DNA of 20,263 nt from a virus, in the IMG/VR virus record IMGVR_UViG_3300032322_001997, positions 1 to 20,263 of that record; one strand, given 5' to 3'. Both the position numbers and the translations under genes were made by a program. Below are positions 1,123-20,263 of the stretch, piece after piece (position 1 is the first letter of the stretch; the number at the start of each line of letters is the position of its first letter). Under the pieces are notes generated by a model. It made no database searches. It saw nothing but the letters and a program-made list of their open reading frames with translations, and was not told the DNA's origin.

Positions 1123-1125
1123 TAG

Positions 1126-1197: not shown

Positions 1198-1201
1198 AAG
1201 G

Positions 1202-3698: not shown

Positions 3699-3700
3699 AA

Positions 3701-4076: not shown

Positions 4077-4096
4077 AATTTTTCCTAGTAAAGGAA

Positions 4097-4566: not shown

Positions 4567-4590
4567 GGGTGAGATCTGCAGCTCTCACCC
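4567..4590 (-). promoter_or_regulatory. Strong hairpin before the membrane protein start
   Basis: A perfect inverted repeat GGGTGAGA / TCTCACCC (8 bp, 8-nt loop) ends 5 nt before the ATG at 4561. No U run follows, so it is more likely a translation or processing element than a terminator. It lies one base after the AATAAATA box at 4599-4592, so late transcripts would lose the first bases of its 5' arm. Confidence 0.55.
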
Positions 4591-4591
4591 A

Positions 4592-4599
4592 TATTTATT
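4592..4599 (-). promoter_or_regulatory. Probable late promoter (AATAAATA)
   Basis: AATAAATA sits 2 nt after the rlpA-like stop codon and about 30 nt upstream of the next ATG. It differs by one base from TATAAATA, and NATAAATA is the form reported for cyanophage late promoters. Predicted +1 falls in the 5' arm of the adjacent hairpin. Confidence 0.5.
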
Positions 4600-6815: not shown

Positions 6816-7666
6816 CACTGCTTTTTTGTTGGTGCTGGACAATCAAATATTCTACCCCAACCATCGTTACCTCCAGGACACCATCTGCGCTGAAGAATTG
6901 CTTTAGTGTAGATAGTTTGTTTGCCGTTAGCAACCGCACTAGTATACCCATCGTTTAATGTGCCGTATGGATCATTGATAATATAGTCAGATCCTCTTTT
7001 ACCAACCACTACAACCATGTGCCCACCAGTAGGGTTAGAAAGAGAACCCCTATGCAGGATCCCGATAATAACAGGTTTCCCAGCGGCAAGCTCACGATCA
7101 AGATCAGTGAAAGAAAGATTGTAACTAAAGTGTGACTTAATACCATAAGATGATAAAACTTGTGTTTGAACACTATGGTCAGTGGTGTCACCAATTGCAA
7201 ATACCTTCTTAACGTAAGCGTCATCTCCCTTTGATCCAACTAAAGTTCCTGGTTTAAAATATTCCAGACACATTGCACAGGCAGAAGAATTGCAAGTACG
7301 ATGTGCATCCCTGTAGTTGTCTACCTGATTATAATATGGAACTGGTAAAACATCTGGAATTGTTGGTTTCTCACGATATTTCTCTACCCAATCAGCAGTA
7401 TCAATCAAAAGTTCTTTTGGTAAAGAATTCTGTAACAATTCTACACCAGCAACATGATTTACATTACGCTCACTAAAAAATTCAAAGAATTTATGTAAAT
7501 CTACTGTACCACCAAAAGCGTTACCGCCACGATACTTTGTTACCCATGCACAATTTTGTTGCTTTAATTCTGCAGGCAACGCTTTAGAAAATAATCCAAC
7601 TGCAGCAACATGAGTTGGTTTTATTTCATCATAATACTTAAAAAAATCAATCAACTTTATTGTCAT
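6815..7666 (-). CDS. C39-like cysteine peptidase with N-terminal repeats
   Basis: A 283-aa protein in two parts. Residues ~8-47 and ~58-99 are two copies of a ~40-residue repeat (D/HKFFxFF...HVAxVxL...LPxEL...WVxKYR), possibly wall-binding. Residues ~104-276 form a papain-like C39_2 domain: VPYYNQ (Q114), TCNSSACAMCL (C125), GGHMVVVVG (H216) and INDPYG (D232) give a complete Cys-His-Asp site. Such domains cut peptides; next to a lysozyme gene, cleavage of peptidoglycan cross-links is the likely role, though processing of a virion protein is possible. Its start lies 20 bases inside the preceding nuclease gene, and its stop overlaps the lysozyme ATG. Confidence 0.82.
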   Translation of the reverse strand: MTIKLIDFFKYYDEIKPTHVAAVGLFSKALPAELKQQNCAWVTKYRGGNAFGGTVDLHKFFEFFSERNVNHVAGVELLQNSLPKELLIDTADWVEKYREKPTIPDVLPVPYYNQVDNYRDAHRTCNSSACAMCLEYFKPGTLVGSKGDDAYVKKVFAIGDTTDHSVQTQVLSSYGIKSHFSYNLSFTDLDRELAAGKPVIIGILHRGSLSNPTGGHMVVVVGKRGSDYIINDPYGTLNDGYTSAVANGKQTIYTKAILQRRWCPGGNDGWGRIFDCPAPTKKQ

Positions 7667-7994
7667 TTTTTTTACTCCTAATAAAATATTCTGCGTCTAA
7701 TACAACTAAAGGTTTCTTACCATTCTTTTTTATAAAGACTATAGGTTCATAGTCTTTAGAATTGGCACAAGCTTGTTCGTATGCGTCCCAAATATTTAGT
7801 TTCTCTTGGTTTTTACATTCAATTGAAAAGGGAAACTTTTGTCTAGCATCCCTTGCCATAATAAGATCTTCGCCACCAGCGCCCATGCTACGGCTTTCAA
7901 TGTCTTCTGGATGCACTTCAAGTTGTTCAATCAGTTGATCACGAACCCATTGTTGCAATCTTCTGCCTTTAGCTTTAGCAGATTGTGGACGCAT
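7647..7994 (-). CDS. PD-(D/E)XK nuclease, small endonuclease or resolvase type
   Basis: A 115-aa single-domain protein. KGRRLQQWVRDQL forms helix 1, RSMGAGGEDLIM supplies the first acid (D43) after the Hjc-like S/G-rich turn, and FSIECKNQ gives E59-x-K61. A later VVLDAEYFI strand completes the fold. This layout matches small phage PDDEXK nucleases annotated as Holliday-junction resolvase-like or restriction-like. It likely cuts branched or host DNA. The ATG at 7994 follows at once the T tract of a hairpin that could hide its AGGGG ribosome-binding site, so expression may be limited to late transcripts. Confidence 0.82.
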   Translation of the reverse strand: MRPQSAKAKGRRLQQWVRDQLIEQLEVHPEDIESRSMGAGGEDLIMARDARQKFPFSIECKNQEKLNIWDAYEQACANSKDYEPIVFIKKNGKKPLVVLDAEYFIRSKKNDNKVD

Positions 7995-7997
7995 AAA

Positions 7998-8019
7998 AAA
8001 TACCCCTTTCGGGGTATTT
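7998..8019 (-). terminator. Terminator/SD-hiding hairpin between nrdB and the nuclease
   Basis: The minus strand reads AAATACCCC-GAAA-GGGGTATTT with further Ts (six in all, to 7995) directly before the ATG at 7994. It is a textbook rho-independent terminator with a GNRA loop for the nrdA-nrdB transcript. Its 3' arm is also the only Shine-Dalgarno (AGGGG) of the next gene. Confidence 0.85.
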
Positions 8020-8022
8020 AGT
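8015..8022 (-). promoter_or_regulatory. Possible late promoter ACTAAATA overlapping the hairpin
   Basis: ACTAAATA begins within the nrdB stop codon and runs into the hairpin's 5' arm. With T4 spacing, +1 falls in the GAAA loop, so late RNA would start AAAGGGG... with the ribosome site free. It deviates from TATAAATA at two positions, so the call depends mainly on the matching arrangement at 18991-18998. Confidence 0.4.
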
Positions 8023-9236
8023 CAAAGTTGAAAACCAGCAAAGGTATCTTTCTTCATATCTTGTTTAATACCACCAACAAGATAACTTTCAACTTCAGTT
8101 TCTTGAGGAGCAACTTGAAGACCTTTAGAAGAAATCCAATGCTCTGTCCAAGGAAGTGGATTATTTTTTGAAGAAATGTCATAGATGGGTTTTAACCCAA
8201 TCGCTTTCATGCGGCGATTAGCAATCCATTCAACATAAGAACTAAGAAGTTTTTGGTTCAATCCAATCATAGATCCATCTTGAAACAAATAATCTGCCCA
8301 TTCTTTTTCCTGATCAACTGCTTTTCTAAACATAGCAACAATATTTTCTTCTTCTTCCTTAGCAATCTGTTGCATATCCAAATCATCACCTTCTTTCCAC
8401 TTGTTCAAAATATTTTGAGTAAGTACAAGATGTTGATTTTCATCCCGAGCAATCAGTGAAATAATTTTTGCAGATCCTTCCATAACCTTTAGTTCACCAA
8501 AGGCAAAAGAGCAAGCAAAAGAAACGTAGAAACGAATACCTTCAAGAATATTAACGTTAGCAACTGCTCTATAAAGTTTACGCTTTAATTCATATAATTC
8601 ATTTCTGGCAGAAGGAACACCTTCAGATACAAACTTCCACTGATTACTACTATCATATGCGTGAGCAGCATTGATAAAATCATTATACGCTTCAGTTACA
8701 GACTTAGCACGATCTAAAATCTTTTGATCATCTAAGATTGTGTCAAAAACTTCTGAAGGATCGGCATAAACATTTTTAATAATGTAGGTATATGAACGAC
8801 TATGGATCATCTCCATAAACTCCCATACCTTCATGGCACCTTCTAATTCTGGTAATGAACAGTATGGTGCAAATGCCATACTAGGTCCACGACCCTGAAC
8901 ACTATCAAGAAGAACTTGATACTTTAGGTTGGAAGTAAAAATATGTTTTTGTTCATCTCTTAGTGTCTGGTAGTCGCTACGATCCTTTTGTAAGGATACT
9001 TCTTCTGGACGCCAGAAATAACTAAGTTGTTGATTGGTTAATTTTTCAAATACTGGGTATTTGTAGCTGTCGTATCTTTGAATACCTAGTGGTTGTCCAA
9101 AGAACATTGGTTCTTTTTTTGTATCAACTTGAGCATCATTAAAAACGGTCATTCCGTCGATGGCCATTTTTGTTGTTTGCGGTGGGTTGATCCTAAATTT
9201 ATTAGATTTTACACGATTCGCAGTCTTCTTCTTCAT
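8022..9236 (-). CDS. nrdB: Class Ia ribonucleotide reductase small subunit (R2)
   Basis: The radical-generating subunit for making dNTPs from NDPs together with NrdA. All di-iron ligands and the radical tyrosine align with E. coli R2: LLDSVQGR (D84), EMIHSRSY (E115, H118, Y122), EGIRFYVSFACSFAF (E204) and RDENQH (E238, H241). FWRPEEV carries W48, and the C-terminus AGFQL is the NrdA-docking tail. The frame overlaps nrdA by 35 bases. The ATG at 9236 adds a basic 23-aa extension; family comparison favours the ATG at 9167 (MAIDGMTVF) as the true start, but neither has a good ribosome site. Supply of dNTPs for phage DNA synthesis fits its place behind primase and nrdA. Confidence 0.97.
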   Translation of the reverse strand: MKKKTANRVKSNKFRINPPQTTKMAIDGMTVFNDAQVDTKKEPMFFGQPLGIQRYDSYKYPVFEKLTNQQLSYFWRPEEVSLQKDRSDYQTLRDEQKHIFTSNLKYQVLLDSVQGRGPSMAFAPYCSLPELEGAMKVWEFMEMIHSRSYTYIIKNVYADPSEVFDTILDDQKILDRAKSVTEAYNDFINAAHAYDSSNQWKFVSEGVPSARNELYELKRKLYRAVANVNILEGIRFYVSFACSFAFGELKVMEGSAKIISLIARDENQHLVLTQNILNKWKEGDDLDMQQIAKEEEENIVAMFRKAVDQEKEWADYLFQDGSMIGLNQKLLSSYVEWIANRRMKAIGLKPIYDISSKNNPLPWTEHWISSKGLQVAPQETEVESYLVGGIKQDMKKDTFAGFQL

Positions 9237-11496
9237 TGGTATTCAGTAGTTCAGATACTAGTGATTTGATATCAGGCTTATGATCTATTTCGTCGCTCTT
9301 ATTGTCATAAGTGTTCTGATAATAACTTGTTTTCCACCCATACTTATATGTAGTCAAGAAGTCTTGTGCCATGACTGACACTGGAACTTCATTATCAGAA
9401 TAGTTTTGTGGATTGTAAGACCAGTTACCAGAAATTGCTTGGTCAAAAAACTTCTGCATCACAGCAACAGTGTTAATATAACCACGGTTGCTAGGCATAT
9501 CCCACAGAAGTGTATAGTTGTTTTTGAGGGTATGATACTGAGGAACAATTTGCTTAAGTGGTCCTTTCTTAGACTTCTTAACGGACAGGTAATCTCTAGG
9601 TGGTTCAATTCCATTTGTTGCGTTTGACACAACGGAACTGCTCTCCGATGGCATCTGTGCGGACAATGTTGAGTGCCTGAGACCGTATTCCACGATGGAT
9701 GCTCTAAGTGTTTCCCAATCATGCTGGTACTCTATAGAGGAAATTTCATCGACATCCTTCTTATATGTATCAATTGGCAAAATACCATCGGAGTATTTGG
9801 TATTCTGGAATGCCGAACATGCACCCTTTTCTTTTGCTAACTGATTAGAAGATTTCAAAAGGAAGTATTGAAAGCTTTCAGAAAGTCCGTGAACAGCATC
9901 CCATGCTTCTTGACTATCATACTTATATCCTAGTTTAGCAAGATAATGTGCTAGACCGATAAATCCAACACCAAGGGATCTACGTGCTTTAGTTCCCCTT
10001 TCTGCAGCAATAATTGGATACTGCTGGTAATCAATAAGTTCATCAAGAGCACGTACAGACAAGTCACAAAGATTTTCTAATTCCTCATCAGACTTTACCT
10101 TACCAACATTGACTGCAGAAAGAATACACAATGCAATTTCACCATCACCATCAATATGCTGAAGTGGTTTAGTTGGAAGAGTAATTTCCTGACACAGATT
10201 GCTCATCTCAACTTTATCCTTGAAGGATGAATGAGAATTGCAATGGTCAATATTCATGATGTAGATACGACCTGTCTCAGCACGTTCTTTGAGGAGATCA
10301 AGAATGAGTTCCTGTGCTTTAACAGTCTTTTTTGGAATGGACGGATCGTTTTCATATTGTACATAGAGATCATCAAACTCAGGGTATCCAAAGCTAGAAT
10401 ACAATCCAGGTACATCATGTGGGGAGAAAAGCGTGATCTCACCATCTTGAATAAATCTTTCATAAAAAATCTTACTAATTTGAATTGAATAATCTAATTT
10501 ACGAACACGGTTATCTTCGGTTCCTTTATTATTTTTAAGAACAATAATGTCTTCTATTTCTTGGTGCCAGATAGGAAAGTGGACCGTAGCAGATCCACCT
10601 CGTATGCCGTTTTGAGTGCAGCATCTGACAGTTGCTTCAAACTTCTTGAGAAAAGGTACAACCCCTGTATGGGAAACTTCTCCACCTCGGATTTTACTGT
10701 TGATGCCACGGATGCGACCTGCGTTGATACCGATGCCCGCCCTTTGTGCAACATATCTGCCAATAGCCATATCACTGCTAAAGATGCTATCGAGGGTGTC
10801 ATCAACATCAACAAGCACACAGCTAGCGAATTGTCTAAGTGGCGTCCTAACGCCTGCCATAATGGGGGTAGGGATGTTGATCCTGTGCTTGCTGATTGCG
10901 TCGTAGTATCGTTTGACATATGATAGTCTAGTTTCTTGTGGATACTCTGCAAAGATTGTCATTGAAATCAATGCATACATGAACTGGGGTAGTTCAAAAA
11001 TTTTACCCGAACTCCTGTCCTGCACAAGGTACTTGTCAACGACTTGACGTAAACCTGCATAAGTGAACAAATAGTCACGATCATGATTGATAAACGTATC
11101 AATCTTATCAATCTCTGCTTCGCTATATTTAGAAAGAATTTCTGCATCATACACACCTAGATCTACACACTTCCTGATGTGATCTTTTAAAGGTATAATT
11201 TCCTTTCTTCTACCACATAACTGTTTTCTGATTGCGAATAGAAGCAATCTTGCTGCTACAAATTGGTAGTTTGGATTTTCTAGATCAATCAAATCTGAAG
11301 CACTACGGATCAAGATCTCTTGGATCTCTCCTGTAGTGATGCCATCGTAAAACTGAATACCAGAATTGATCTCTACCTGCGATGCAGAAACGCCTGCAAG
11401 ATCTTTGCAAGCTTCTTCTACCATTACATGTAGTTTGTCGAGATTTAGTCCTTCAATAGAACCATCTCGCTTTTTGACTGTTATTCCGTTGCTCAT
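9202..11496 (-). CDS. nrdA: Class Ia ribonucleotide reductase large subunit (R1)
   Basis: A 764-aa catalytic subunit. The N-terminus (TVKKRDGSIEGLNLDKL) is an ATP-cone allosteric domain. The barrel contains ASCVLVDVDDTLDS (redox Cys), the radical site SNLCQE (Asn, Cys, Glu) and CILSAVNVG (second redox Cys). The two relay tyrosines should lie in the region near residue 700. The tail EEDCESCKI is the C-terminal CxxC that passes electrons from glutaredoxin or thioredoxin. It starts with an ATGA overlap on the primase stop, and nrdB starts inside its last 35 bases, so the three proteins are probably translated together from the early promoter at 12529-12501. Cyanobacterial hosts usually rely on class II RNR, so the phage brings its own class. 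Confidence 0.98.
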   Translation of the reverse strand: MSNGITVKKRDGSIEGLNLDKLHVMVEEACKDLAGVSASQVEINSGIQFYDGITTGEIQEILIRSASDLIDLENPNYQFVAARLLLFAIRKQLCGRRKEIIPLKDHIRKCVDLGVYDAEILSKYSEAEIDKIDTFINHDRDYLFTYAGLRQVVDKYLVQDRSSGKIFELPQFMYALISMTIFAEYPQETRLSYVKRYYDAISKHRINIPTPIMAGVRTPLRQFASCVLVDVDDTLDSIFSSDMAIGRYVAQRAGIGINAGRIRGINSKIRGGEVSHTGVVPFLKKFEATVRCCTQNGIRGGSATVHFPIWHQEIEDIIVLKNNKGTEDNRVRKLDYSIQISKIFYERFIQDGEITLFSPHDVPGLYSSFGYPEFDDLYVQYENDPSIPKKTVKAQELILDLLKERAETGRIYIMNIDHCNSHSSFKDKVEMSNLCQEITLPTKPLQHIDGDGEIALCILSAVNVGKVKSDEELENLCDLSVRALDELIDYQQYPIIAAERGTKARRSLGVGFIGLAHYLAKLGYKYDSQEAWDAVHGLSESFQYFLLKSSNQLAKEKGACSAFQNTKYSDGILPIDTYKKDVDEISSIEYQHDWETLRASIVEYGLRHSTLSAQMPSESSSVVSNATNGIEPPRDYLSVKKSKKGPLKQIVPQYHTLKNNYTLLWDMPSNRGYINTVAVMQKFFDQAISGNWSYNPQNYSDNEVPVSVMAQDFLTTYKYGWKTSYYQNTYDNKSDEIDHKPDIKSLVSELLNTNEEEDCESCKI

Positions 11497-12473
11497 ATTT
11501 TCTTCCAGTTATTAAACTTAATTTTTGCTTCTAAACCTGAGTATGTATTTGATTTTAACACATCCATAATATTAAGTCCAGCGAGAACCATATCATTGAT
11601 ATCCTTTTGCTGAATACTTGTTGGCCAAATAATTACTTTATCACCCTTATCGATTGTTTTTGATATTCGATTAATGATTTCTTTGTTTCTTGGTTCGTTG
11701 TCGTAAACAAATGTACAATCAGGATAACGTAACCTGTCAAGTACAAAGTCACTGCCACACATTGCAATGCTGTTTTGAACGAAAGTTGAGTCAAAAGGTC
11801 CTTCCGTAATGTAAACTGTTTCACTTTTATTTACTGTATCAAGACCATAAACTTTAGGGAAATCTTCGTCAAGCATGACGGTAAGATATTTAGGTTGTAC
11901 CCATGGATCAAGACTTCTACCTTGAAAACCTATAAGTTGTTTTTCTTCGTTATAAAAAGGAATAATAATTCTCGCATGATCATTACGAACATCATCAAAA
12001 GTATGCTTAAGTGTGTTCGTAAACTCTTTAAATTTTTCTGCGTAGAAAAACTTTGTAGGATTAAGTTTTCTTTTTTTTAGGTAATCACTTGATCTTGGAT
12101 TTTCTGATGCTTGCGGTAGATTTATTTTTGTTTTCTTTACAAAAACTGGTTGTTTAAATTCAAATTTTGGTTCTGGTGTATTCGTGGATCTGCCAGTTAG
12201 TCCTTCCTTATATCGCTCTAGAATATACTGATCATATAAGGAAGAATCAATGTCTTTGAGAAAGTATGTAAAAGACTTTGAAGTTCCGCAATTATGGCAC
12301 TTGAAATTGTAATCTGATTTCCGCTGATAGAAATATCCTCTTGTTTTATTTTTATTTTTTTTAGAATCTCCACAATAAGGACATCTAAAAGTATAAAGAT
12401 TTTCTTTTCTTTTTGAAAATTTTTCTAGACGTGCAGAAATTAGACCAATGTATTTGCGGTCAACATAAATCAT
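11493..12473 (-). CDS. 61: T4 gp61-type DNA primase
   Basis: A 326-aa primase. The N-terminal zinc-binding domain has C31-P-Y-C34 and C59-H-N-C62 flanking a basic GYFYQRKSDYNF hairpin. After a basic linker, the Toprim-type catalytic core shows ARIIIPFYNEEKQLIGFQGRSL, VYITEGPFDS (the conserved Glu) and FVYDNEP (metal-binding Asp region). It makes RNA primers for lagging-strand synthesis together with the gp41 helicase encoded at the right end of this window. Its ATG overlaps the preceding stop (ATGA at 12473-12470), and an AAGG Shine-Dalgarno is present. A TTGACA-N17-TAGAAT promoter about 30 bases upstream can start an early primase-nrdA-nrdB message. Confidence 0.93.
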   Translation of the reverse strand: MIYVDRKYIGLISARLEKFSKRKENLYTFRCPYCGDSKKNKNKTRGYFYQRKSDYNFKCHNCGTSKSFTYFLKDIDSSLYDQYILERYKEGLTGRSTNTPEPKFEFKQPVFVKKTKINLPQASENPRSSDYLKKRKLNPTKFFYAEKFKEFTNTLKHTFDDVRNDHARIIIPFYNEEKQLIGFQGRSLDPWVQPKYLTVMLDEDFPKVYGLDTVNKSETVYITEGPFDSTFVQNSIAMCGSDFVLDRLRYPDCTFVYDNEPRNKEIINRISKTIDKGDKVIIWPTSIQQKDINDMVLAGLNIMDVLKSNTYSGLEAKIKFNNWKKI

Positions 12474-12898
12474 TTAACCTTTGCTGGGGCTTGTTGATCT
12501 ATTCTACTCTGAATATTCTCCCCTGTCAATATACCTGAGGCAAGTGATACCACAGTTGTGACAATAAAACCAGCTGCCAATCCAACTCCAACAGCAATCC
12601 ACTTAAACTTTTTTAGTTCTTCAATTTTAGTATCTACAGCGTCAATACGATCACCAAGATCAACATCTTCTGCTTCTAAATTATCTTTAACATCTTTGAT
12701 CATTGCGATCATAAGAGTTTCTGATTTATTATGTTGATCCAGTTTTTCGTTGTGAACTGCCAACATTTTAGAAACATTTTCAACTGCTTCCTTCATTACC
12801 TGAATGGCAGCATCAACTTTTTCAATAAGTCTTTCTTGTGAGATTGACTTTTCTTCTAATACAGCTACTTTACTTTTTACCTCTTGGTTTCCTAACAT
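12470..12898 (-). CDS. Coiled-coil protein with one C-terminal transmembrane helix
   Basis: A 142-aa protein. Residues ~5-95 are highly charged and helical with repeated heptads (KVAVLEEKSISQERLIEKVDA and later segments), and one hydrophobic helix (IAVGVGLAAGFIVTTVVSLASG) spans about residues 101-123, followed by a short polar tail. The topology is that of a tail-anchored coiled coil; similar cyanophage proteins carry only a DUF label. A role at the membrane, for example as a spanin-like or holin-partner protein, is possible but unsupported. It overlaps the 73-aa gene by 29 bases and the primase gene by 4. An early promoter lies inside its 3' end. Confidence 0.75.
   Translation of the reverse strand: MLGNQEVKSKVAVLEEKSISQERLIEKVDAAIQVMKEAVENVSKMLAVHNEKLDQHNKSETLMIAMIKDVKDNLEAEDVDLGDRIDAVDTKIEELKKFKWIAVGVGLAAGFIVTTVVSLASGILTGENIQSRIDQQAPAKVK
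12501..12529 (-). promoter_or_regulatory. Early promoter for primase-nrdA-nrdB
   Basis: TTGACA (12529-12524), 17 nt, TAGAAT (12506-12501) on the minus strand, with a start predicted near 12494, some 20 nt upstream of the primase ATG. It lies in the last codons of the coiled-coil gene. It would separate early replication genes from the structural genes upstream. Confidence 0.65.
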
Positions 12899-13091
12899 TG
12901 TTGATATCCTGTAGACGTTTGCGGTAAAACAAATTCAATTTTCTACCATACTTACGTCTCAAATCCATAACAGGATCGACACCAGCAACTGGATCTTTCG
13001 CCATACTACTAAATCCAGGATCTCCTGTTTTACCAGGATCTGTGTTCATCATTTCTTCTCTAATAATATTTATTATGCGCTCGATATCCAT
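12870..13091 (-). CDS. Small basic conserved cyanophage protein
   Basis: A 73-aa protein: an N-terminal helix (MDIERIINIIREEMM), a flexible Gly/Pro/Asp-rich middle and a strongly basic C-terminus (MDLRRKYGRKLNLFYRKRL...). The VDPVMDLRRKYGRK part resembles short proteins seen in T4-like cyanophages; the function is unknown, and a nucleic-acid or structural role would suit the charge. It overlaps the previous stop as TGATG and the next gene by 29 bases, so it belongs to a tightly coupled set. Confidence 0.7.
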   Translation of the reverse strand: MDIERIINIIREEMMNTDPGKTGDPGFSSMAKDPVAGVDPVMDLRRKYGRKLNLFYRKRLQDINNVRKPRGKK

Positions 13092-13462
13092 CAGATTGTG
13101 TTGAGAATACGATTACATTCATCATGAATTGGAATATCATCTAATCCTGACTTTGGATAATCTGGTATCCTGTTCAAGAAAATAAGAAACGTTTTAATCA
13201 TTGACCAATATTCCTTTTCAATTTTGAAAAATAAAAGTGGCACCGTTGCTTCACCAAAAACATTAAAACAGATTATCAAATGATTTAAGATCAAATGGTG
13301 CCGCAATTCATTCTGCTCTACATATTTTTTCAACAGCCTTTTAATATATTTAAAACGCTTCAAATCTTCCTCAAATTCTTCCATAGTGGAAGCATGAGGA
13401 TTTTCATAATGTTTTATAGCGAATAGAAGATGGTTATCTTCATTCAATTCATCAAATTTCAT
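13091..13462 (-). CDS. Conserved T4-like cyanophage protein of unknown function
   Basis: A 123-aa, mainly helical protein. KFDELNEDNHLLFAIKHYENP, EEFEEDLKRFKYIKRLLKKY and LRHHLILNHLIICFNVFG form a pattern that I recognise from many T4-like phages, carried in databases under a DUF name (I believe DUF7207). No catalytic motif is seen. Seven bases separate it from the virion protein gene upstream, so it can be expressed late with it, and it is coupled to the 73-aa gene by TGATG. Confidence 0.75.
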   Translation of the reverse strand: MKFDELNEDNHLLFAIKHYENPHASTMEEFEEDLKRFKYIKRLLKKYVEQNELRHHLILNHLIICFNVFGEATVPLLFFKIEKEYWSMIKTFLIFLNRIPDYPKSGLDDIPIHDECNRILNTI

Positions 13463-13469
13463 TTATAAA

Positions 13470-14318
13470 TTATTTGATTGTTAATGTTGTTGTTCCGATA
13501 CCTACGCCTCTTACAGCATGAGGATATGTGCTAACTCCAGCAATTCCACCGCCGAAGTATGTACCTGCACCACCGACATTTCTAATCATGTCAGAAGTAA
13601 ATGTCTTCTCAGCAGTTGAGTTTTGGAAATCAGTGATTGTTCCTACTACGTTGCCTGCAACGTGAATGTTTAGAACAGTTCCAATGCCTAGATTAGTTGT
13701 GAATTGGAATGCAATTCTATTACCAATCTGACCATTGAAGTTACGCATCATTGTGTAACCAAATCCAGTATCAGAACCAGAAGTACGGGTTCCAAAATAA
13801 ACTGGAACTTGTACATTAGGTGTCATCGAAATTGCAGTACCAACAACGAATGAAGTTCCTGCGCCAGTGGTTGCTCTGATATTTACAGTAGCGCCTGCTG
13901 AGCAGAAAACAGGTTCATTCCAAACAACATGAACAAATCCTGTAGCGGTTCCAATACCTGTTGCAACGCCTGATCTAACAACTCTATTAGTACCACCAGC
14001 ACCAATGCTGATTGGCGATGCAACGTTTGGATCTTCAAAGAAAACTGCAACTGGTGTAGCAGCACCTAATCCAGTAATTCTGCTTCCATTTGGATGTCTT
14101 GTAGTACCAAGACCAGAGACATGAACTAGAACTTCATCATAGTATGAAGTAGAAAGACCAGAGTATACTTTATCGCCATAATGTCTATATACCCAACCTC
14201 TTTGATCTGCAAAGCAATTATGAGGTGTTCTGTTTCTGTCAACGTCAATTAGATGCTTTGGGATAGCATAGTAATTAGCAGCATACTCACTTTGAGTTGA
14301 AATTCCCCAAATTGCCAT
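13470..14318 (-). CDS. Virion structural protein (cyanophage 'MAIWG' family)
   Basis: A 282-aa, Gly/Thr/Val-rich, beta-type protein opening MAIWGISTQSEYAANYYAIPK, with PHNCFADQRGWVYRHYGDKV and a repeated GIGT/GLGT pattern. I recognise this opening as a structural protein of T4-like cyanophages. The long stretch with few charged residues and many short strands fits a decoration, neck or tail/fibre-type component; the exact location in the virion is not evident. It is preceded by an AGGA ribosome site and an exact TATAAATA late promoter, with a strong terminator just upstream, so it starts its own late unit. The composition is less AT-rich than its neighbours, as usual for highly expressed structural genes. 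Confidence 0.85.
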   Translation of the reverse strand: MAIWGISTQSEYAANYYAIPKHLIDVDRNRTPHNCFADQRGWVYRHYGDKVYSGLSTSYYDEVLVHVSGLGTTRHPNGSRITGLGAATPVAVFFEDPNVASPISIGAGGTNRVVRSGVATGIGTATGFVHVVWNEPVFCSAGATVNIRATTGAGTSFVVGTAISMTPNVQVPVYFGTRTSGSDTGFGYTMMRNFNGQIGNRIAFQFTTNLGIGTVLNIHVAGNVVGTITDFQNSTAEKTFTSDMIRNVGGAGTYFGGGIAGVSTYPHAVRGVGIGTTTLTIK

Positions 14319-14348
14319 TGTAGTTTTTCCTATCGGTTTTGCTTGAAA

Positions 14349-14356
14349 TATTTATA
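14349..14356 (-). promoter_or_regulatory. T4-type late promoter for the virion protein
   Basis: An exact TATAAATA (14356-14349), 31 nt upstream of the ATG at 14318, with AGGA at proper spacing in the leader. It directly continues the T tract of the upstream terminator. Confidence 0.8.
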
Positions 14357-14360
14357 AAAA

Positions 14361-14382
14361 TACCACAACCGAAGTTGTGGTA
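14361..14382 (-). terminator. Strong UUCG-loop terminator
   Basis: The minus strand reads TACCACAAC-TTCG-GTTGTGGTA followed by TTTTTAT: a perfect 9-bp stem with the very stable UUCG loop and a U run. It ends the unit with the 57- and 51-aa genes. Confidence 0.9.
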
Positions 14383-14394
14383 AGGTTAGTTTAT

Positions 14395-14550
14395 TTATTT
14401 ACTTTTTATTAGTATTCTCAAATAATGAGAAACAAAATCTATTATCCCGTTTTCTTTAAAGCGTTTAGTTTTTGCTAACCATTCTGAAAATGATAGCAAA
14501 AGTCCAAGAATGATCGTAAATCCCCAGTTAGTAACTAGGCAAGTGATCAT
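14395..14550 (-). CDS. 51-aa membrane protein
   Basis: The frame ATG (14550-14548) to TAA (14397-14395) encodes 51 residues: a short start (MITCLVTNWG), one hydrophobic helix (FTIILGLLLSF), then a polar, basic half. Its start overlaps the stop of the 57-aa gene (ATGA), so the two are coupled. The size and single span would be compatible with a small holin or membrane effector, but nothing specific is recognised. A terminator follows 13 bases later. Confidence 0.65.
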   Translation of the reverse strand: MITCLVTNWGFTIILGLLLSFSEWLAKTKRFKENGIIDFVSHYLRILIKSK

Positions 14551-14720
14551 GCTTGTGGCTTAAAGAGTTTCTCTTTAACTAGTGCTAGAACAACATCGTC
14601 AATCGAGTTGTCGGTTGTTCTTACATATTTTTGTAGAAGATCTACAACCAATTGCTTTACAGCAGGATGTGTTGCGATTGCAATTAATAGTGGTTTTACC
14701 ACTGCAACTACTGCGTCCAT
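14547..14720 (-). CDS. 57-aa conserved small phage protein
   Basis: The frame ATG (14720-14718) to TGA (14549-14547) encodes 57 residues starting MDAVVAVVKPLLIAIATHPAV. The protein is helical and amphipathic, with the middle VVDLLQKYV and an acidic NSIDDVV stretch. I recall similar short proteins in T4-like cyanophages, in structural regions, without a known role. A full GGAGG ribosome site precedes the ATG, the best in this window, which suggests strong expression. It is coupled to the 51-aa membrane protein by ATGA. Confidence 0.75.
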   Translation of the reverse strand: MDAVVAVVKPLLIAIATHPAVKQLVVDLLQKYVRTTDNSIDDVVLALVKEKLFKPQA

Positions 14721-14764
14721 GATACCCTCCTTTTTTGTGTTGGATATTATCCTACTTTATTTAG

Positions 14765-16315
14765 TTAGTATTTGAACTTTCCAGATCTGTCTTGCACAGT
14801 TCCATATCTTGGATCATTAGCAACCGATGGTCTTTTTGGTCTTGGTCTATAACCAACCATTTTATTATGCCTTTTTACATCTGGATTAGTATCGCGTTCA
14901 CCAGGCTCATCCATTTCACGTCTTTCACTCATTGGTTTTGTTTTTGCAAGACCAGTTCCTTTCTTACTAAAACCAGCAAGAATTTTATCAGCTTCTGCTT
15001 CTAATTTTGACTTTCTTTCTCTTTCTTTTTCTTGTTTTTTTCTACCAGCATCAGTTTGAACTCTTTTCATTCTTTCGGAAGCTGGTCTAAGTGCTTCACC
15101 GAGATAGTAATCTAGTTCATTTTCAACTGCTTCATTATGTTTTGGTGATTGACCAATACGATCAAATCTTTCCTTTTCTTTTTGTCTAGTGATTGCACTT
15201 ACAATGTTTGAAGACTTTTTCTGTGCTTCTGCTTTTTTCTTGCCAGTTGAAGAAAGTGCTGTACGTGCTAGGTTGCCTGCACGACGATACATTTTATTTT
15301 CTTTATCCTTATCTATTTCTTTATATGCTTCCTCAATATCAGGATGGGGTGCATAAAGAGGACCTTCATAGTTACCAGCAAACTCCTCATTCTTTTTTTT
15401 CATTTTAGGAGCACTTGCTGGATGAGTGTCCTTATAGAAAGTTGATGATCTTGATGCTTTATCAGCATTTTGTTTTTCTCTTTTTGCCTTTTCAGACGCA
15501 TGGAACATTTTACTGAAGCGAGTGGTATTTTTCTTTTCGGTATCAGTAGGAATAGAATTAGTTCCACCATCTCTACCATAAACAGAACCTTTTCTCGCCT
15601 TTTCCATTTGCCCTGCAACTTTCTTCATAGGGAAAGTTTGCTTTGCTTCATCAATTTCAAGTTCTTCCATCGCTTTCTTACGGATGGTAGCAAAATAAAT
15701 TTGCTTACCCTTCTCAGCACCATATTGCTTCTTCATAGAAGCCTTCATACCAGAATCATCATATTTTTTCTTTAGATTTTTTTCTTTCTTCATCTCACCA
15801 GAAGTCATTTCTCTTTCAGAAATTTCTTCACCTTCTGGTTCATAAGAATTCTTTAAACTATCAATTGCCTTTTGTGTTTGCTGATTTCTTTGTTGTAATT
15901 TACCAGCAACTCCTTTTGCTTTATCATAAACCATTTTACCAGCAAGTGCAGTTCCTGCAGCAAGTCCTGCTTTAATGCCAAGACCTACCAATGGATTTTC
16001 GGAAATATTTTCTTCAGTCTTTAAATCTGGATTGATAGTAACTTTATTTTTAATTCCCTTCTTAGGTTTTATAGGACCGTCACATTCACAATCTTCCTCA
16101 GTAAAAAAACCGAGATCAGACCTCCAATCGGAATGTTCTTTTTTCATCATCTTCTTTTTACCACCCATCTGATCCTTACCAGTTGCACCAGCAATAACAT
16201 CACCTCTGGTAACCGTATCATAAGGTGGATAATTATTAGCTAAGTTTCCATCACCTTTCTTTTCCTCTAGGTGAGGACGACGAAGATCTTCAAAGGACTG
16301 TTCCCAGATGTTCAT
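14765..16315 (-). CDS. Large Lys/Glu-rich protein, probable head or scaffold-related structural protein
   Basis: A 516-aa protein with extreme charge and low complexity (many KKK and EKE runs). It starts MNIWEQSFEDLRRPHLEEKK and contains a Gly/Ala hydrophobic patch (~residues 109-125, LVGLGIKAGLAAGTALAG) and an MKKQYGAEKGKQIYFATIRKK segment that recurs in cyanophage structural proteins. LGEALRP and similar E-A motifs could be prohead protease sites. Most of it is predicted disordered or coiled, as in prohead core or internal head proteins. No enzyme motif is visible. Tandem AATAAATA motifs upstream indicate late expression. Confidence 0.75.
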   Translation of the reverse strand: MNIWEQSFEDLRRPHLEEKKGDGNLANNYPPYDTVTRGDVIAGATGKDQMGGKKKMMKKEHSDWRSDLGFFTEEDCECDGPIKPKKGIKNKVTINPDLKTEENISENPLVGLGIKAGLAAGTALAGKMVYDKAKGVAGKLQQRNQQTQKAIDSLKNSYEPEGEEISEREMTSGEMKKEKNLKKKYDDSGMKASMKKQYGAEKGKQIYFATIRKKAMEELEIDEAKQTFPMKKVAGQMEKARKGSVYGRDGGTNSIPTDTEKKNTTRFSKMFHASEKAKREKQNADKASRSSTFYKDTHPASAPKMKKKNEEFAGNYEGPLYAPHPDIEEAYKEIDKDKENKMYRRAGNLARTALSSTGKKKAEAQKKSSNIVSAITRQKEKERFDRIGQSPKHNEAVENELDYYLGEALRPASERMKRVQTDAGRKKQEKERERKSKLEAEADKILAGFSKKGTGLAKTKPMSERREMDEPGERDTNPDVKRHNKMVGYRPRPKRPSVANDPRYGTVQDRSGKFKY

Positions 16316-16337
16316 TGGATAGACTTATACGTTTCTG

Positions 16338-16349
16338 TATTTATTTATT
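16338..16349 (-). promoter_or_regulatory. Tandem AATAAATA late promoter motifs
   Basis: The minus strand reads AATAAATAAATA, which contains two overlapping NATAAATA boxes 23-34 bases upstream of the ATG of the 516-aa protein. The sequence lies between the PP-loop gene stop and that start, in one of the few intergenic gaps. Confidence 0.5.
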
Positions 16350-16355
16350 GTATTG

Positions 16356-17063
16356 TCAATACACACCAAAAACCGCTTTCTTTTCAATGCACCAATGACA
16401 TTTTTCGCAAGGAAATTTACCTACAGTTTCAATACAAGAACATGTTAATGGAAAAATAGTATCCATTAAATTATATCTCTCATATAATTCCTTAATAACA
16501 AATTTATTACAGTTATAAAAGGGATATAGTTTTTCTACATTTTCATAAGTATCGATGCCAGTCAATATCCTATGGGGATCCCGTTTATGATCTCTTTCAT
16601 TTATCCAAGTAGAAGAAGTAATATCTATTCCAATCTGTGTAGCTTCTTCCTCAGTAAAATTCAAATTTGTAGCATCTATAATTAAATCAACACCAAGTTC
16701 ATTACGAAGTTTTTCATCTGGTTTTTTAGACCAAACAACTCTTCTAGCATCTTTATGTGAATTAAAAATTCCTACTGTTATGGGTTGAATTTTAATATTT
16801 GGAAATTGATCAGAGATAATTTTTATAATATCGTTTGTAACTGCTGTAAAATTTCTTGCTCTATTAGCAATATCTCTGGCATGAGCTGGATATATTTCCA
16901 AGTCAAATCTATTAAGATCAGTAGCAAATTTACAAAGTAACCATAATAATAAAGAAGAATCTATTCCAGCAGAAAGATGAATTCCAATTTTATTAATATC
17001 AGATTTAAAAAATTCATCAAACCATTTTATTTCGGTTTTACCGACATTAATTATTAAACTCAT
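16356..17063 (-). CDS. QueC-like PP-loop ATPase
   Basis: A 235-aa protein. The N-terminal PP-loop is HLSAGIDSS at residues 29-37, a variant of SGGxDS used by N-type ATP pyrophosphatases to adenylate a carboxylate or carbonyl. The C-terminus has C210-x8-C219-x2-C222-x2-C225 (CEKCHWCIEKKAVFG), exactly the zinc-site spacing of QueC, the enzyme that makes preQ0 for queuosine or 7-deazaguanine DNA. The second SGG glycine is Ala here, and the body (about 170 aa) is only loosely QueC-like, so another nucleophile or substrate is possible. No other deazaguanine genes are in the window. It is very AT-rich, with its own late-type promoter, and looks like an independently acquired gene. Confidence 0.78.
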   Translation of the reverse strand: MSLIINVGKTEIKWFDEFFKSDINKIGIHLSAGIDSSLLLWLLCKFATDLNRFDLEIYPAHARDIANRARNFTAVTNDIIKIISDQFPNIKIQPITVGIFNSHKDARRVVWSKKPDEKLRNELGVDLIIDATNLNFTEEEATQIGIDITSSTWINERDHKRDPHRILTGIDTYENVEKLYPFYNCNKFVIKELYERYNLMDTIFPLTCSCIETVGKFPCEKCHWCIEKKAVFGVY

Positions 17064-17067
17064 TTTG

Positions 17068-17952
17068 TCAATTTAAACTATATTTTTTATTATTTATTTC
17101 TTTAGTTTCTGAAATCCAAGTCCTGAAGACGTTTTTGTCACTATCGATACAAATTAAATGATTTGTTCCTCGTCTAAAAACATTTCCAATTTTTCCATTG
17201 CTTTCTATTAGAGAACCAATTTTAAAAATATCTCCAGAAATATATTGTTCTCTAATTGACCTTTCATCTACAGGAATAATATTCATCATCACATAACGAT
17301 ATAATTGACCATTCTGTTCTAATGCTAACTTAGCAATATCTTGTGCTCTACTTTTTCTGACAACAATATTAATGGCAGTATATCCACTTTCATAAATGGA
17401 TTGAAGAACATCATAAATTGTTTCAGCATTAGCATCATCTACAATGATTTCACCATAAGTTTCTTTAAGTTTAGCAATATCAGCATCTCTACTTGGGAAA
17501 ATATAATAAGGAGATCCTTGAGCAGTTTCTTCTACAGCCGCTAAAATATTATTGGTAACTTCATCATTGTCAAATTTATCAAAAGCAATTGTCAACGGCT
17601 CTTTACGTGCCATTGCATCAAACTGTTGCCTTGCTTGCTGATTTTGAACTACTTGTTGCAGTCTTTCGTAATCTGCTGTTCGTGCAGCAGTCGTAGTAGT
17701 TTGAGATCCACTCGCTTTATCTTTTGTGCTACTTCCAGAAGTTGTTGTTGACTGAGAAGTTTTTGTTTCATCTTTATTGCCACCCTGTCTAGGGGTGAAC
17801 ATCTTAAGTTGACCCTTTATAGTCTTTGCTTTCAGAGATCCTTGTTTATCGTACCAATCACCATGCCCGTCTCCGACTAACCCCAAACGCTTTGCTTGCT
17901 GCGATGCTTGGGTTGATCTTGCTTCTAGAATGAATTGGTTGAACTGCTTCAC
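17068..17952 (-). CDS. Phage protein with a degenerate nucleotidyltransferase-like domain
   Basis: From the GTG at 17952 (MKQFNQFILEA, a common cyanophage opening) the product is 294 aa; a TTG at 17988 would add 12. An N-terminal RLGLVGDGHGDWYD motif and a Ser/Thr-rich linker are followed by residues ~118-235 that resemble the HxGH cytidylyltransferase-like domain of cyanophage proteins (TIAF...IFPSRDAD...IYDVL...INIVVRKSR...YNVIP-like VMMNIIPVDER). The usual GRFNPPxxGH loop reads DKFDNDEVTN, so the catalytic His residues are gone. The C-terminus (KIGSLIESNGKIGNVFRRGTNHLICIDSD) looks like a small barrel domain common in these phages. It overlaps the 100-aa gene by 95 bases. Probably a structural or binding protein. 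Confidence 0.65.
   Translation of the reverse strand: MKQFNQFILEARSTQASQQAKRLGLVGDGHGDWYDKQGSLKAKTIKGQLKMFTPRQGGNKDETKTSQSTTTSGSSTKDKASGSQTTTTAARTADYERLQQVVQNQQARQQFDAMARKEPLTIAFDKFDNDEVTNNILAAVEETAQGSPYYIFPSRDADIAKLKETYGEIIVDDANAETIYDVLQSIYESGYTAINIVVRKSRAQDIAKLALEQNGQLYRYVMMNIIPVDERSIREQYISGDIFKIGSLIESNGKIGNVFRRGTNHLICIDSDKNVFRTWISETKEINNKKYSLN
17091..17098 (-). promoter_or_regulatory. Probable late promoter for the PP-loop gene
   Basis: AATAAATA lies 28 bases upstream of the PP-loop ATG, inside the last codons of the preceding gene. It matches NATAAATA; the AT-rich context lowers confidence. Confidence 0.45.
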
Positions 17953-18160
17953 TGATTTTCTGATAGATTTGATTTTTATTCTTCTCAATAAACGCTAGTC
18001 CTAGCGTCTTATACTGCAAATATTTAGTCTTATCTTCTTTGTAGTTCTCAATAGATGCAATATAAAATCGCATAAAGTCTTCAATCTCACGCTTCATAAT
18101 CTGTTTGCGTTTTTTTATAGATTTATATGAAGTGATTAGTTCATCAATAAGTTGGTTCAT
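17858..18160 (-). CDS. Helical hypothetical protein overlapping its downstream neighbour
   Basis: A 100-aa, lysine-rich, helical protein (MNQLIDELITSYKSIKKRKQ...), with a basic Ser/Arg tail. The start overlaps the preceding stop as ATGA, a strong sign of coupled translation. Its last 95-131 bases overlap the following gene in another frame. The tail (HSRSKINPSIAASKAFGVSRRRAW) reads like a translation of the neighbour's opening and may not be under protein selection. No function is recognised. A 7-bp inverted repeat (17992-18007) lies within it. Confidence 0.6.
   Translation of the reverse strand: MNQLIDELITSYKSIKKRKQIMKREIEDFMRFYIASIENYKEDKTKYLQYKTLGLAFIEKNKNQIYQKISEAVQPIHSRSKINPSIAASKAFGVSRRRAW
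17992..18007 (-). repeat. Inverted repeat inside the 100-aa gene
   Basis: ACGCTAG and CTAGCGT are perfect complements separated by 2 nt, followed on the minus strand by TTTATT. It sits 3 nt before the TTG at 17988 and 40 nt before the preferred GTG. It could be a weak attenuator or a translational element. Confidence 0.4.
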
Positions 18161-18969
18161 GCTACAGGCTCAATTCTAATTACTGCTTCATTCAATCTAA
18201 CACCCGACGCATCCTTTCCACGTCCCTTTAAACGAATATCAATATAAGTTTTGTCTGCAATTTCATTCACTAGTTTGTCATCTATTGGTTTTAATTCTTT
18301 TTCATTGAGAATATAATTTGCAGTCTTATCGTTAGACTTTCCAAAAAGAGATTCTCCAGTCAAAGATTCTCTTACAAGTTCTCTTTTAAAGGCTAAAAAT
18401 AACTTATCACCTTCTGGATTTTTTCTAGATCCTAGAATGCTTTGAAGTTTTTGATTTAATCCACCAGATCTTTTTGCCTCGTCCAGTATTGCTTTCATAA
18501 CTGGTTGTGGTTGTTTTTTCGGACCTTCACCTAAAGTTTGAGATAGTTCATCAAGAACCATAGCTACTTGCTTTACTTCTGCTGCACCCATACCTCCTGC
18601 CATAGCAACTTTGAATAAAACATTATTCAATACATTTACAGTTCCCTGAATTCCAGAACTAGAAAGTTGATATGCATCTCCCCATTTCATTGAACATTTA
18701 TACTTAATACCATTCTTTAAAAAAAGAACATCAGTCTTTGGTTCTGGACTTGACCCACCAAGTTGTTTAAAAGATTTGTAAAATTGTTGGGGATTTGATG
18801 GTTGGATTTTATCCATCATTTGATTAGCAGCAGTTTGCACTACTTGTTCAATGGGTTGAAAAGATAATTTACGAATTTCATTTTCTTCACTCAAAGTGGG
18901 ATTAACAATCCTACTATATGCAGCAAGCATAATAGCATACTCAAATTGTTTTCCCTTATCGATTGCCAT
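18157..18969 (-). CDS. Conserved phage protein, possible PD-(D/E)XK-like fold
   Basis: A 270-aa protein. Its N-terminal part has KGKQFEYAIMLAAY (a possible first helix with Glu10) and PKTDVLFLKNGIKYKCSMKWG, where D80 and S93-x-K95 resemble the D...(E/S)xK strands of the PD-(D/E)XK fold. The middle is helical, and RESLTGESLFG followed by SNDKTANYIL and a beta-rich end resembles other T4-like phage proteins of unknown role. The nuclease idea is an inference from spacing only. The ATG at 18969 directly follows a terminator hairpin whose 3' arm holds its AGGGG ribosome site; late RNA is predicted to start inside that hairpin. Its stop overlaps the next start (ATGA). Confidence 0.65.
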   Translation of the reverse strand: MAIDKGKQFEYAIMLAAYSRIVNPTLSEENEIRKLSFQPIEQVVQTAANQMMDKIQPSNPQQFYKSFKQLGGSSPEPKTDVLFLKNGIKYKCSMKWGDAYQLSSSGIQGTVNVLNNVLFKVAMAGGMGAAEVKQVAMVLDELSQTLGEGPKKQPQPVMKAILDEAKRSGGLNQKLQSILGSRKNPEGDKLFLAFKRELVRESLTGESLFGKSNDKTANYILNEKELKPIDDKLVNEIADKTYIDIRLKGRGKDASGVRLNEAVIRIEPVA

Positions 18970-18990
18970 AAAAAATCCCCCTTACGGGGG
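18970..18990 (-). terminator. Terminator/SD-hiding hairpin after mazG
   Basis: The minus strand reads CCCCC-GTAA-GGGGG then A and six Ts, touching the ATG at 18969. It is a GNRA-loop rho-independent terminator for the mazG transcript, and its 3' arm (AAGGGGG) is the ribosome site of the next gene at 7-nt spacing. Confidence 0.82.
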
Positions 18991-18998
18991 TATTTATC
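18991..18998 (-). promoter_or_regulatory. Late promoter GATAAATA overlapping the mazG stop
   Basis: GATAAATA starts with the G of the mazG TAG stop and ends at the hairpin's 5' arm. With five bases to +1, late RNA would begin GUAAGGGGG, in the loop, leaving the ribosome site unpaired. Confidence 0.6.
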
Positions 18999-19396
18999 TA
19001 TCGATCGTCTGCTGCTCGATTTTCTGAATAGTAAGCATCAAAGGTTCCTTCAGGATAACGCTTTGAAAGCTTTTTGATGTTCATATCCGTCAACTCTTCC
19101 AAGGAAATATTAAGAGCAAGGCAAGCTTGAGCAACATACCAAAGAATATCTCCAAGTTCAATTTTAAGATGTTCAATGTTATCTTCGTTTGCAGGTTTAC
19201 CTTGGAAAATAATCTTCTTTACAATTTCCATAAACTCACCTGCTTCTGCAGAAATACCAACTGCACCAGTTAGAAGACGATGAATTTCCAAACCACCATC
19301 TTCCAGTTCCTGAATGCGTGATACAAATGCTTCTTTATCACTAGAAGCAGGACTAGTTACTTTAGAAACAAACTCTTTATATTTTTCAAATGCCAT
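18998..19396 (-). CDS. mazG: MazG-like nucleoside triphosphate pyrophosphohydrolase
   Basis: A 132-aa all-helical MazG-type enzyme. The metal-binding motifs are present: AEAGEFMEIVKK (ExxE) and KIELGDILWYVAQ (ExxD), followed by LEELTDMNIKKLSKRYP, which is typical of phage MazG. Such enzymes hydrolyse (d)NTPs to monophosphates; in cyanophages, roles in dNTP recycling or in altering host alarmone levels have been proposed. Its ATG overlaps the helicase stop as TAATG. A perfect TTGACA-N17-TATAAT promoter 50-80 bases upstream lets it be expressed early and separately. A terminator follows immediately. Confidence 0.93.
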   Translation of the reverse strand: MAFEKYKEFVSKVTSPASSDKEAFVSRIQELEDGGLEIHRLLTGAVGISAEAGEFMEIVKKIIFQGKPANEDNIEHLKIELGDILWYVAQACLALNISLEELTDMNIKKLSKRYPEGTFDAYYSENRAADDR

Positions 19397-20263
19397 TAGA
19401 ATTTAAAATCACTGAATTTAGCTTTGGATGATTTATCATCACCATTATTATACTCTTCATCGTCTCCCTTGTCAAGGATATCATCTTGAGCTTGCTGTTC
19501 ACAATCATAGAGACGCATCTTAGCACGATCAATACCAACAACAAATCTCTTGTTAATGGTAGGATCATTATATCTATTCTTTAATTGTTTGACCATAATC
19601 TGACCCAACTTTTCCAATTCTTCGCTACTAATAAGAGCAAACATAAGGTCAGCAGTAGCAGGAAGACCAAAACTTTCTGACGTGTCAGTCAAGTTAGGAT
19701 CAGAACTAGTAAATCCACTTCTAGTTGTTTGAGTAGCAGATACAATAGGAAGATCAAATTCTACTGCTAATCCACGCAATTCTTCTGCAATAGCTTTAAT
19801 GTACGAATAAGAGTTTACATTAACTGCAGATCGATAACGAGAAGAAGCACAGATATTCAAATAGTCTACAAAAATAATATCTGGTCTAAATGACTTCTTC
19901 AATGCAAGTTCATTGAGCAATGATCTAAAGTGTCCTACGTGTGCCGATGCTGTAGGATATTCTTTAACAATTAGTTTACCGTTAGTTCGTGAACTAAGTG
20001 CATTGATTTTTTTGAAGAAGGTGGTCTTTGGTAGTTCACCAATTTCCCTGATGTTAACGTTGAGAAGATTTGCGTCAATTCTTTCCGCAATCTTTTCTTC
20101 TGCCATTTCAAGTGTGATGTATAAAACATTCTTTCCTGCGACGAGAACGCTGGAAGCAAAATGGCACATGAATAAAGATTTACCGACACCAGTGCCAGCA
20201 AGTGCGATGTTAAGAGTTTTGTTAGAGACACCACCAGCAGTAATCTTATTGAAGTATTCAAGA
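19396..20263 (-). CDS. 41: T4 gp41-type replicative DNA helicase, C-terminal part
   Basis: The frame enters from the right window edge, so the N-terminal part is missing; about 288 residues are visible, against about 475 in T4 gp41. The RecA-like motor shows Walker A LAGTGVGKS (just upstream of the internal Met at 20169), VLYITLEMAEEKIAERID (the DnaB-family LEM motif), Walker B DIIFVDYLNI, and PIVSATQTTRSG (the DnaB motif 3 glutamine). An acidic tail (DILDKGDDEEYNNGDDKSS) may bind partners. The protein unwinds DNA at the phage fork, 5' to 3', and works with the gp61 primase. Its 3' end holds the mazG early promoter. Confidence 0.95.
   Translation of the reverse strand, partial: LEYFNKITAGGVSNKTLNIALAGTGVGKSLFMCHFASSVLVAGKNVLYITLEMAEEKIAERIDANLLNVNIREIGELPKTTFFKKINALSSRTNGKLIVKEYPTASAHVGHFRSLLNELALKKSFRPDIIFVDYLNICASSRYRSAVNVNSYSYIKAIAEELRGLAVEFDLPIVSATQTTRSGFTSSDPNLTDTSESFGLPATADLMFALISSEELEKLGQIMVKQLKNRYNDPTINKRFVVGIDRAKMRLYDCEQQAQDDILDKGDDEEYNNGDDKSSKAKFSDFKF
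19447..19475 (-). promoter_or_regulatory. Consensus early promoter for mazG inside the helicase gene
   Basis: TTGACA (19475-19470), 17 nt, TATAAT (19452-19447): perfect boxes and spacing, within the acidic-tail codons of gp41. Transcription from about 19440 gives a leader of about 44 nt for mazG. Confidence 0.8.

Follow-up and report, generated by a model that had tools for sequence, protein, structure and literature searches.

A predicted late promoter interleaved with a terminator-like hairpin at the mazG junction of a virus genome

Introduction

Where a late gene follows an early gene on the same strand, how is it kept silent until the late phase of infection? The question is raised by a short element found between a mazG gene and a gene for a 270-aa protein in DNA of viral origin. 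The window, i.e. the whole stretch of DNA that was analysed, comprises 20,263 nucleotides (IMG/VR record IMGVR_UViG_3300032322_001997, positions 1 to 20,263). An initial annotation, based on the letters alone, had proposed that this single element acts as terminator, translational lock and late start site. This interpretation was partly supported by the present analysis, which also identified two similar elements in the window and a gene-swap seam, both absent from that annotation.

Results

Architecture of the element

Read directly on the minus strand (18998-18967), the element has the sequence GATAAATA-CCCCC-GTAA-GGGGG-A-TTTTTT-ATG and represents the whole intergenic space between mazG and the 270-aa gene (Table 1), exactly as first annotated and with the G common to the box and the mazG stop. 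The box is a TATAAATA-like sequence of the T4 late promoter type located just upstream of the 270-aa gene, and fits the cyanophage late motif NATAAATA as given in the available text of PMC2984593. T4 late boxes are positioned at -13 to -6, according to the available part of PMC1524935, and this spacing would put the late +1 of the window at 18985, inside the hairpin loop, so that the loop G previously proposed as the start is confirmed as a prediction. By sequence and T4 spacing, this +1 would remove the 5' arm, and the Shine-Dalgarno sequence lies within the helix as its 3' arm, the arrangement of T4 genes e and soc.

Table 1. Features of the window discussed in the text
Feature	Position	Strand	Details
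Sigma70-type promoter TTGACA-17-TATAAT	19447..19475	-	12/12 consensus bases; about 50 bases before mazG
mazG, MazG-like pyrophosphatase	18998..19396	-	phrog_229 5.9e-52; Pfam MazG 2.4e-09
mazG stop TAG	19000-18998	-	read from sequence
Late promoter box GATAAATA	18991..18998	-	G common to box and mazG stop
5' arm CCCCC	18986..18990	-	occupies all five bases from box to predicted +1
Loop GTAA	18982..18985	-	predicted late +1 is the loop G, 18985 (T4 spacing)
3' arm GGGGG (Shine-Dalgarno)	18977..18981	-	7 bases before ATG
A, then T6 terminator run	18976; 18970..18975	-	ATG from 18969
270-aa gene behind the element	18157..18969	-	phrog_22045 (3e-64), PHROG of unknown function; 29 IMG/VR relatives
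Second element ACTAAATA, CCCC-GAAA-GGGG, TA, T6	7995..8022	-	directly after nrdB; box at 8021; straddling energy -10.7
RusA-like Holliday junction resolvase gene behind second element	7647..7994	-	phrog_244 1.4e-21
Third late box AATAAATA, T, GGGTGAGA...TCTCACCC straddling +1	4567..4599	-	box at 4598; straddling energy -9.5

The full 32-mer occurs as a single copy in the window and in none of 100 shuffles. With five G-C pairs followed by A and T6, the hairpin has the sequence of an intrinsic terminator and came first in a terminator scan of positions 8000-20263, which found 17 sites versus 6.4 in shuffles. The isolated hairpin folds at -11.0 kcal/mol (5/200 shuffles equally good) and its 71-nt context has a z of -2.0 (7/200 shuffles equally good), so that the single-sequence folding statistic is only moderate; the weight of the case is in comparison and not in the single fold of the window hairpin. 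Folding of the predicted late leader does not stand out from that of shuffles (97/200 equally good). In L032, whose element is near-identical to that of the window, an anti-SD duplex of -11.2 kcal/mol was computed.

The sigma70-type site of the window sits inside the end of the helicase ORF preceding mazG, and a site at 11 or 12 of the 12 positions was found before mazG in 16 of 34 non-redundant mazG loci, always with a spacer of 17. The resulting layout is an early-type promoter, mazG, the hairpin and the next gene, and the strength of this promoter makes it plausible that early RNA arrives at the hairpin. As for the 270-aa protein, there was no Pfam match, and its model (pLDDT 76.9) matched no PDB fold at E 0.001 or better; a PD-(D/E)XK nuclease, guessed from the invariant D80 and S93-x-K95, was without support.

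Hairpins across the predicted start after mazG

The folding energy lost when the RNA is cut at the predicted +1 ("straddling" energy) was computed for 37 non-redundant cases from 80 loci, taking in each case the first late box after mazG that is start-proximal. Its mean was -8.1 versus -3.55 in shuffles (n=37), and the mean loss was deepest at offsets 0 to +2 from the predicted +1. At cut-offs chosen after inspection of the data (-9 and -7.5 kcal/mol), hairpins of -9 or below were found for 16/37 mazG-junction boxes against 6.3% of shuffles and 2/34 other start-proximal late boxes of the same loci, and 27 of the 45 non-redundant junctions, isolates included, reached -7.5, with L085 scored at the first of its two boxes. 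A separate hairpin finder applied to 52 mazG loci placed +1 inside for 13 of 14 box/terminator neighbours. The proposed fusion of a late box with a hairpin broken in late RNA thus recurs at the mazG junction in many lineages and with different sequences; in one of the comparisons behind this result, L070 gave an artefact at a contig end.

The complementarity is also partner-specific. When arms were permuted among 403 boxes, a pool of eight genomes and three locus sets that includes loci picked for the two genes of interest, 21 box-adjacent stems were observed (mean 4.0, maximum 12 in 500 permutations) and 15 loop-type stems (mean 5.1, maximum 13). The eight genomes alone gave no significant excess (6 vs mean 2.1, maximum 8; 5 vs 3.0, maximum 8), and neither did T4 plus Aeh1 (2 vs 1.4; 3 vs 1.1).

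Versions of the element before the 270-aa gene

Upstream regions of the 270-aa gene were read by eye at 29 IMG/VR loci, and 22 of them carry a fused element, in five sequence versions, all with the predicted +1 inside the hairpin. The loop form is the most frequent (9/29), with CCCCTTCTC or CCCCTGCTC, the box CTAAATA, then GGAGAGGGG or GGAGAAGGGG and T5; L005 has such a loop-type element. The C5/G5 form of the window follows (7/29, one with the loop GTAT), and three versions occur at two loci each: AATAAATA-GACCC with GGGTC and T7, CTAAATA-AGAGGGA with TCCCTCT and T6 or more, and CCCTTCC-ATAAATA-TTTGGAAGGG-T6. The element is absent at the other seven loci, three of which have a box without a G+C-rich hairpin and four no late box. 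The 5' arm is located either ahead of the box or in the interval from box to +1, and in both cases it is absent from the predicted late RNA.

The initial annotation had suggested an alignment of relatives to look for covariation of the stem with the box kept. The C5/G5 stem is invariant in all seven loci having it, so covariation rests on the other versions and on the resolvase junction (see below), where some compensatory change was found. In the tree of the 270-aa protein, C5/G5 and loop forms are interspersed among near-identical proteins, L006 grouping with L013 (support 100/99). Over 2282 bases, as far as the last base ahead of the late box, these two loci share 98.7% identity, and they match again, at 97%, from the point where the G run of the 3' arm begins. 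The intervening segment of L006 consists of the box, CCCCC and the loop; that of L013 is about 700 bases of different sequence, with a CCCCTTCTC arm and a CTAAATA box of its own at the end, so that a common 3' arm pairs with two unrelated 5' arms, one after the box and one before it. Such a pattern would be predicted by selection for a hairpin in read-through RNA; recombination of two pre-existing elements would look identical.

Other late boxes of the window and the resolvase junction

In the third element of the window, the 5' arm is rich in G and the T tail is slight; the gene behind it starts at 4561, and in S-PM2 this gene is preceded by a different stem, AGGGGAG/CTCCCCT. For the second element, the resolvase junction was surveyed at 80 loci, three of which were dropped as their contig begins too near the gene. 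Many of the 77 readable leaders (65 distinct) have no late box, and a box-adjacent stem was found in 13 of the 17 distinct leaders having one. One of these 17 is a copy of the window's own leader shortened by two bases in cutting, which was left out of the pair counts, the window element being read by eye. Since MAFFT misplaced the 4-bp and 5-bp stems, pair counts were taken by script: the third stem pair is C-G in 5 leaders, T-A in 7 and T-G in 1, including the double change between C-G and T-A. In S-PM2, this junction reads CCTCC-ATAT-GGAGG-T6.

Further late boxes were noted on the minus strand. Positions 14349-14398 contain a late box, a TTCG terminator and another late box, so that transcripts started at the first box would include the entire terminator and those started at the second none of it; from 14382 to 14349 the order is the ordinary one, terminator then late box. 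Nine tRNA genes lie on this strand within 102-4170, with a late box (3623-3617) directly after the end of tRNA-Thr. A 512-aa AMP-binding enzyme (1822-3360, minus strand; Pfam PF00501, no PHROG match) adjoins a 2OG-Fe(II) oxygenase gene.

Cultured phages and frequency in complete genomes

A T-tailed fused element was found downstream of mazG in 6 of 15 cultured cyanophages inspected, or 5/14 in an unselected count, since S-SCSM2R was found through the element itself. In S-CREM1, S-MbCM7, S-CAM1, S-RSM4 and DSL-LC02, the T-tailed element has its box in the loop; in S-SCSM2R (GCCCCCGTAAGGGGG-T7) the box precedes the stem. The mazG junction of S-H38 follows the ordinary order, terminator then late box. 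Among 600 boxes of eight complete genomes (seven cyanophages and HTVC008M), the predicted +1 was inside a terminator in 7 cases, with a terminator before it in 25 and after it in 13, which makes the fused form junction-specific and rare genome-wide. A genome-wide rule was rejected, with +1 in or before the terminator 3' arm for 5/344 ATAAATA boxes versus 36/10279 letter permutations in the seven cyanophages, the numbers being small.

Gene exchange at the cassette boundary

Viral contigs were scanned with the pattern ATAAATACCCCC-N3-8-GGGGG, the loop being left free. The plain count of box-C5/G5 stretches was not discriminating (104, as compared with 38 for a scrambled box and at least 120 for swapped arms). 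A T tail and an ORF start at fixed spacing were associated with 72 of 106 box-C5/G5 matches, none of 38 with the scrambled box and 13 of 121 with swapped arms, among the matches listed; swapped arms make an imperfect control, as reversed-arm elements belong to the phenomenon. Including the window, 73 cassettes have both features, and a mazG-like ORF precedes 56 of them (in L205, its end is 24 bases away). The ORFs that follow fall into 11 blastp families. After dereplication, 28 mazG-linked cassettes remained, and 23 of them have the loop GTAA; the search pattern dictated box and arms, whose constancy is uninformative. Exact C5/G5 copies number one in 19 of 20 records, many of which are fragments, and none in the remaining one; other fused elements differ in sequence.

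Pairwise comparisons located the exchange at the cassette. L175 and L143 share 97.8% identity across 1826 bases, a match that stops 1-3 bases short of the ATG. Behind it come ORFs of 380 and 477 aa that are unrelated, and from the stop codon on the two contigs match again at 86.6% identity. With L213, L175 shares 98.6% identity along 427 bases to the cassette end and has no match downstream, where up to 1200 bases were compared, and L140 and L180 have only the 35-base cassette in common. At the sequence level, the cassette is thus an edge of gene exchange between related viruses. The contigs are metagenomic; an assembly chimera is an unlikely cause of the swap, since homology resumes past the swapped ORF and each mazG-linked family is represented by several contigs. 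Ten exchanged proteins were scanned, with six PHROG matches, all of unknown function except one GTP-binding protein that is not mazG-linked.

Several contigs have peculiarities of their own. L150 (3351-3405, minus strand) has the C5/G5 hairpin and T run twice in tandem before one gene. In L133 (648-677) and L156 (5291-5320), the pattern is matched by ATAAATACCCCCAAAATTGGGGGTATTTAT on either strand; this near-perfect palindrome might serve as a late promoter in both directions. In L183, a contig of 177,686 bases, the swapped ORF has 869 aa versus 465 aa in relatives, as if fused with its neighbour.

Discussion

Competing explanations of the junction

A T tail follows 17 of the 27 straddling hairpins found after mazG, and the predicted late leader has a strong Shine-Dalgarno sequence (-6 kcal/mol or better) in 13 of these 17 T-tailed elements. 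The explanation that competes best is compaction: intergenic space being short in phages, the mazG terminator and the late promoter of the next gene would share bases, an overlap without regulatory meaning that leaves translation uncontrolled. The element does fill the entire space between its two genes, four of the 17 T-tailed elements are without a strong Shine-Dalgarno in the late leader, and terminator-then-box is the commonest order genome-wide (25 of 45 box/terminator neighbours in the eight genomes) as well as that of window 14382-14349. However, the energy loss peaks at the predicted +1, two different placings of the 5' arm have the same outcome for late RNA, and compaction leaves unexplained the hairpins without T tail that occur in the same register (10/27), some with strong Shine-Dalgarno sequences. 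We therefore regard it as unlikely, while giving it more credit than the two explanations that follow.

Under a second explanation, the element would act on translation only, as a lock like that of T4 gene e, with its T run belonging to the usual A/T-rich leader and causing little termination. Such locks are described for T4 e, soc, 49 and I-TevI in the available parts of PMC3014915 and PMC2988022, and hairpins lost from late RNA without a T tail do occur at the mazG junction (L044, L053, L071). Against it stand the T tails themselves (17/27 after mazG versus 0/13 T4 rows) and the four T-tailed elements without a strong site, and a lock acting alone seems improbable. Chance, whereby an ordinary terminator has come to lie behind an ATAAATA without promoter function, would suit the number of ATAAATA copies in the window (11, with 10.0 expected), although all 11 are on the gene strand. 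It is hardly credible given the strand bias of [AC]TAAATA (120 to 2 for the gene strand in the 52 mazG loci) and the contrast between 72/106 and 0/38 for the scrambled box.

A probable late-phase valve

We consider it probable that the element is a late-phase valve, a stop and a lock for early RNA and a start for late RNA. RNA polymerase coming from the sigma70-type promoter would make mazG RNA and terminate at the C5/G5-T6 hairpin, and any read-through RNA would fold its only Shine-Dalgarno into the stem. Once active, the late (gp55-type) polymerase would start at 18985 in the hairpin loop; lacking the 5' arm, late RNA would not be stopped at the hairpin and its ribosome site would be free (GUAAGGGGGAUUUUUUAUG). 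Termination, initiation, translational hiding and timing are what we infer from sequence and register. Since a strong Shine-Dalgarno is frequent but dispensable, what the elements have in common may be termination and late start, with the lock superimposed in the window version. In the window the Shine-Dalgarno does form the 3' arm; such hiding is common, not universal, and is unsupported as a general rule.

More tentatively, the valve could also be a late-phase regulatory seam, in which the interleaved promoter and terminator turn a stop into a start at the polymerase switch and the same sequence is a recombination joint for exchanging late genes behind the early mazG unit with timing undisturbed. 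We hold this wider proposal to be possible, with less confidence than the valve itself. If true, a module of about 30 bases would explain how late genes on the same strand stay silent early and would let unrelated late genes plug in with correct timing. The proposal also yields concrete predictions for cultured phages, S-CAM1, S-MbCM7 and S-RSM4 among them.

Comparison with known systems

In the available parts of PMC3014915 and PMC2988022, T4 e, soc, 49 and I-TevI have ribosome-binding-site hairpins that are lost from late transcripts, which agrees with what the initial annotation stated of e and soc, and T4 segB and Aeh1 mobE are grouped with them. As far as these sources describe it, the window resembles T4 e-type locks in the position of its late promoter, from which RNA would start without the 5' arm of a hairpin hiding the ribosome site in longer early RNA. 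In T4, the straddling measure was -9 or below for 10 of 38 start-proximal boxes (null 2.5%), and in Aeh1 for 9 of 41; it recovers T4 e and segB, placed by annotation. Other protein starts in the T4 list are presumably those of the I-Tev endonucleases and of gene 49. A T tail is absent from all 13 T4 rows, and 3 of 10 Aeh1 rows were flagged for one, including two clear terminators (GGGAGCTTCGGCTCCC-T5). By comparison, the window hairpin is G+C-rich, with five pairs and a T6 tail, and should, unlike the T4 locks, also terminate; its 5' arm fits exactly between box and +1, and it stands at a gene-swap seam. The second element of the window precedes a RusA-like resolvase, and the late resolvase gene of T4, gene 49, appears in the accessible literature as a classic hairpin-locked gene.

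In the ordinary arrangement, a terminator followed by a late promoter as in window 14382-14349 and S-H38, two transcription units are separated as they are by the fused element, but late RNA starts after the hairpin and not, as predicted here, inside it. In a literature search that covered few subscription papers, none was recognised as describing a cyanophage terminator with a late promoter built into it.

Work by Arbiol in 2010 and by Comeau in 2014 is said to describe PeSLs as composite promoter-terminator cassettes mediating modular shuffling in T4-like phages. In a PeSL, promoter and stem-loop stand side by side and many copies occur per genome, whereas those of the window cassette are interleaved and the exact C5/G5 copy is single in nearly all records, many of them fragmentary. 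PeSLs have an early sigma70 promoter and the window cassette a late box, no promoter-like scan site overlapping 18966-19000. The density of PeSLs in the genome is high, according to the available text of PMC4503421. To the extent that PeSLs are documented there, both they and the window cassette are short promoter/stem-loop units with unrelated genes behind them in relatives, near-identical DNA running to the cassette end and similarity ceasing beyond it. If the seam proposal is correct, the module would unite the late-lost RNA locks and the promoter-terminator swap cassettes of T4-like phages.
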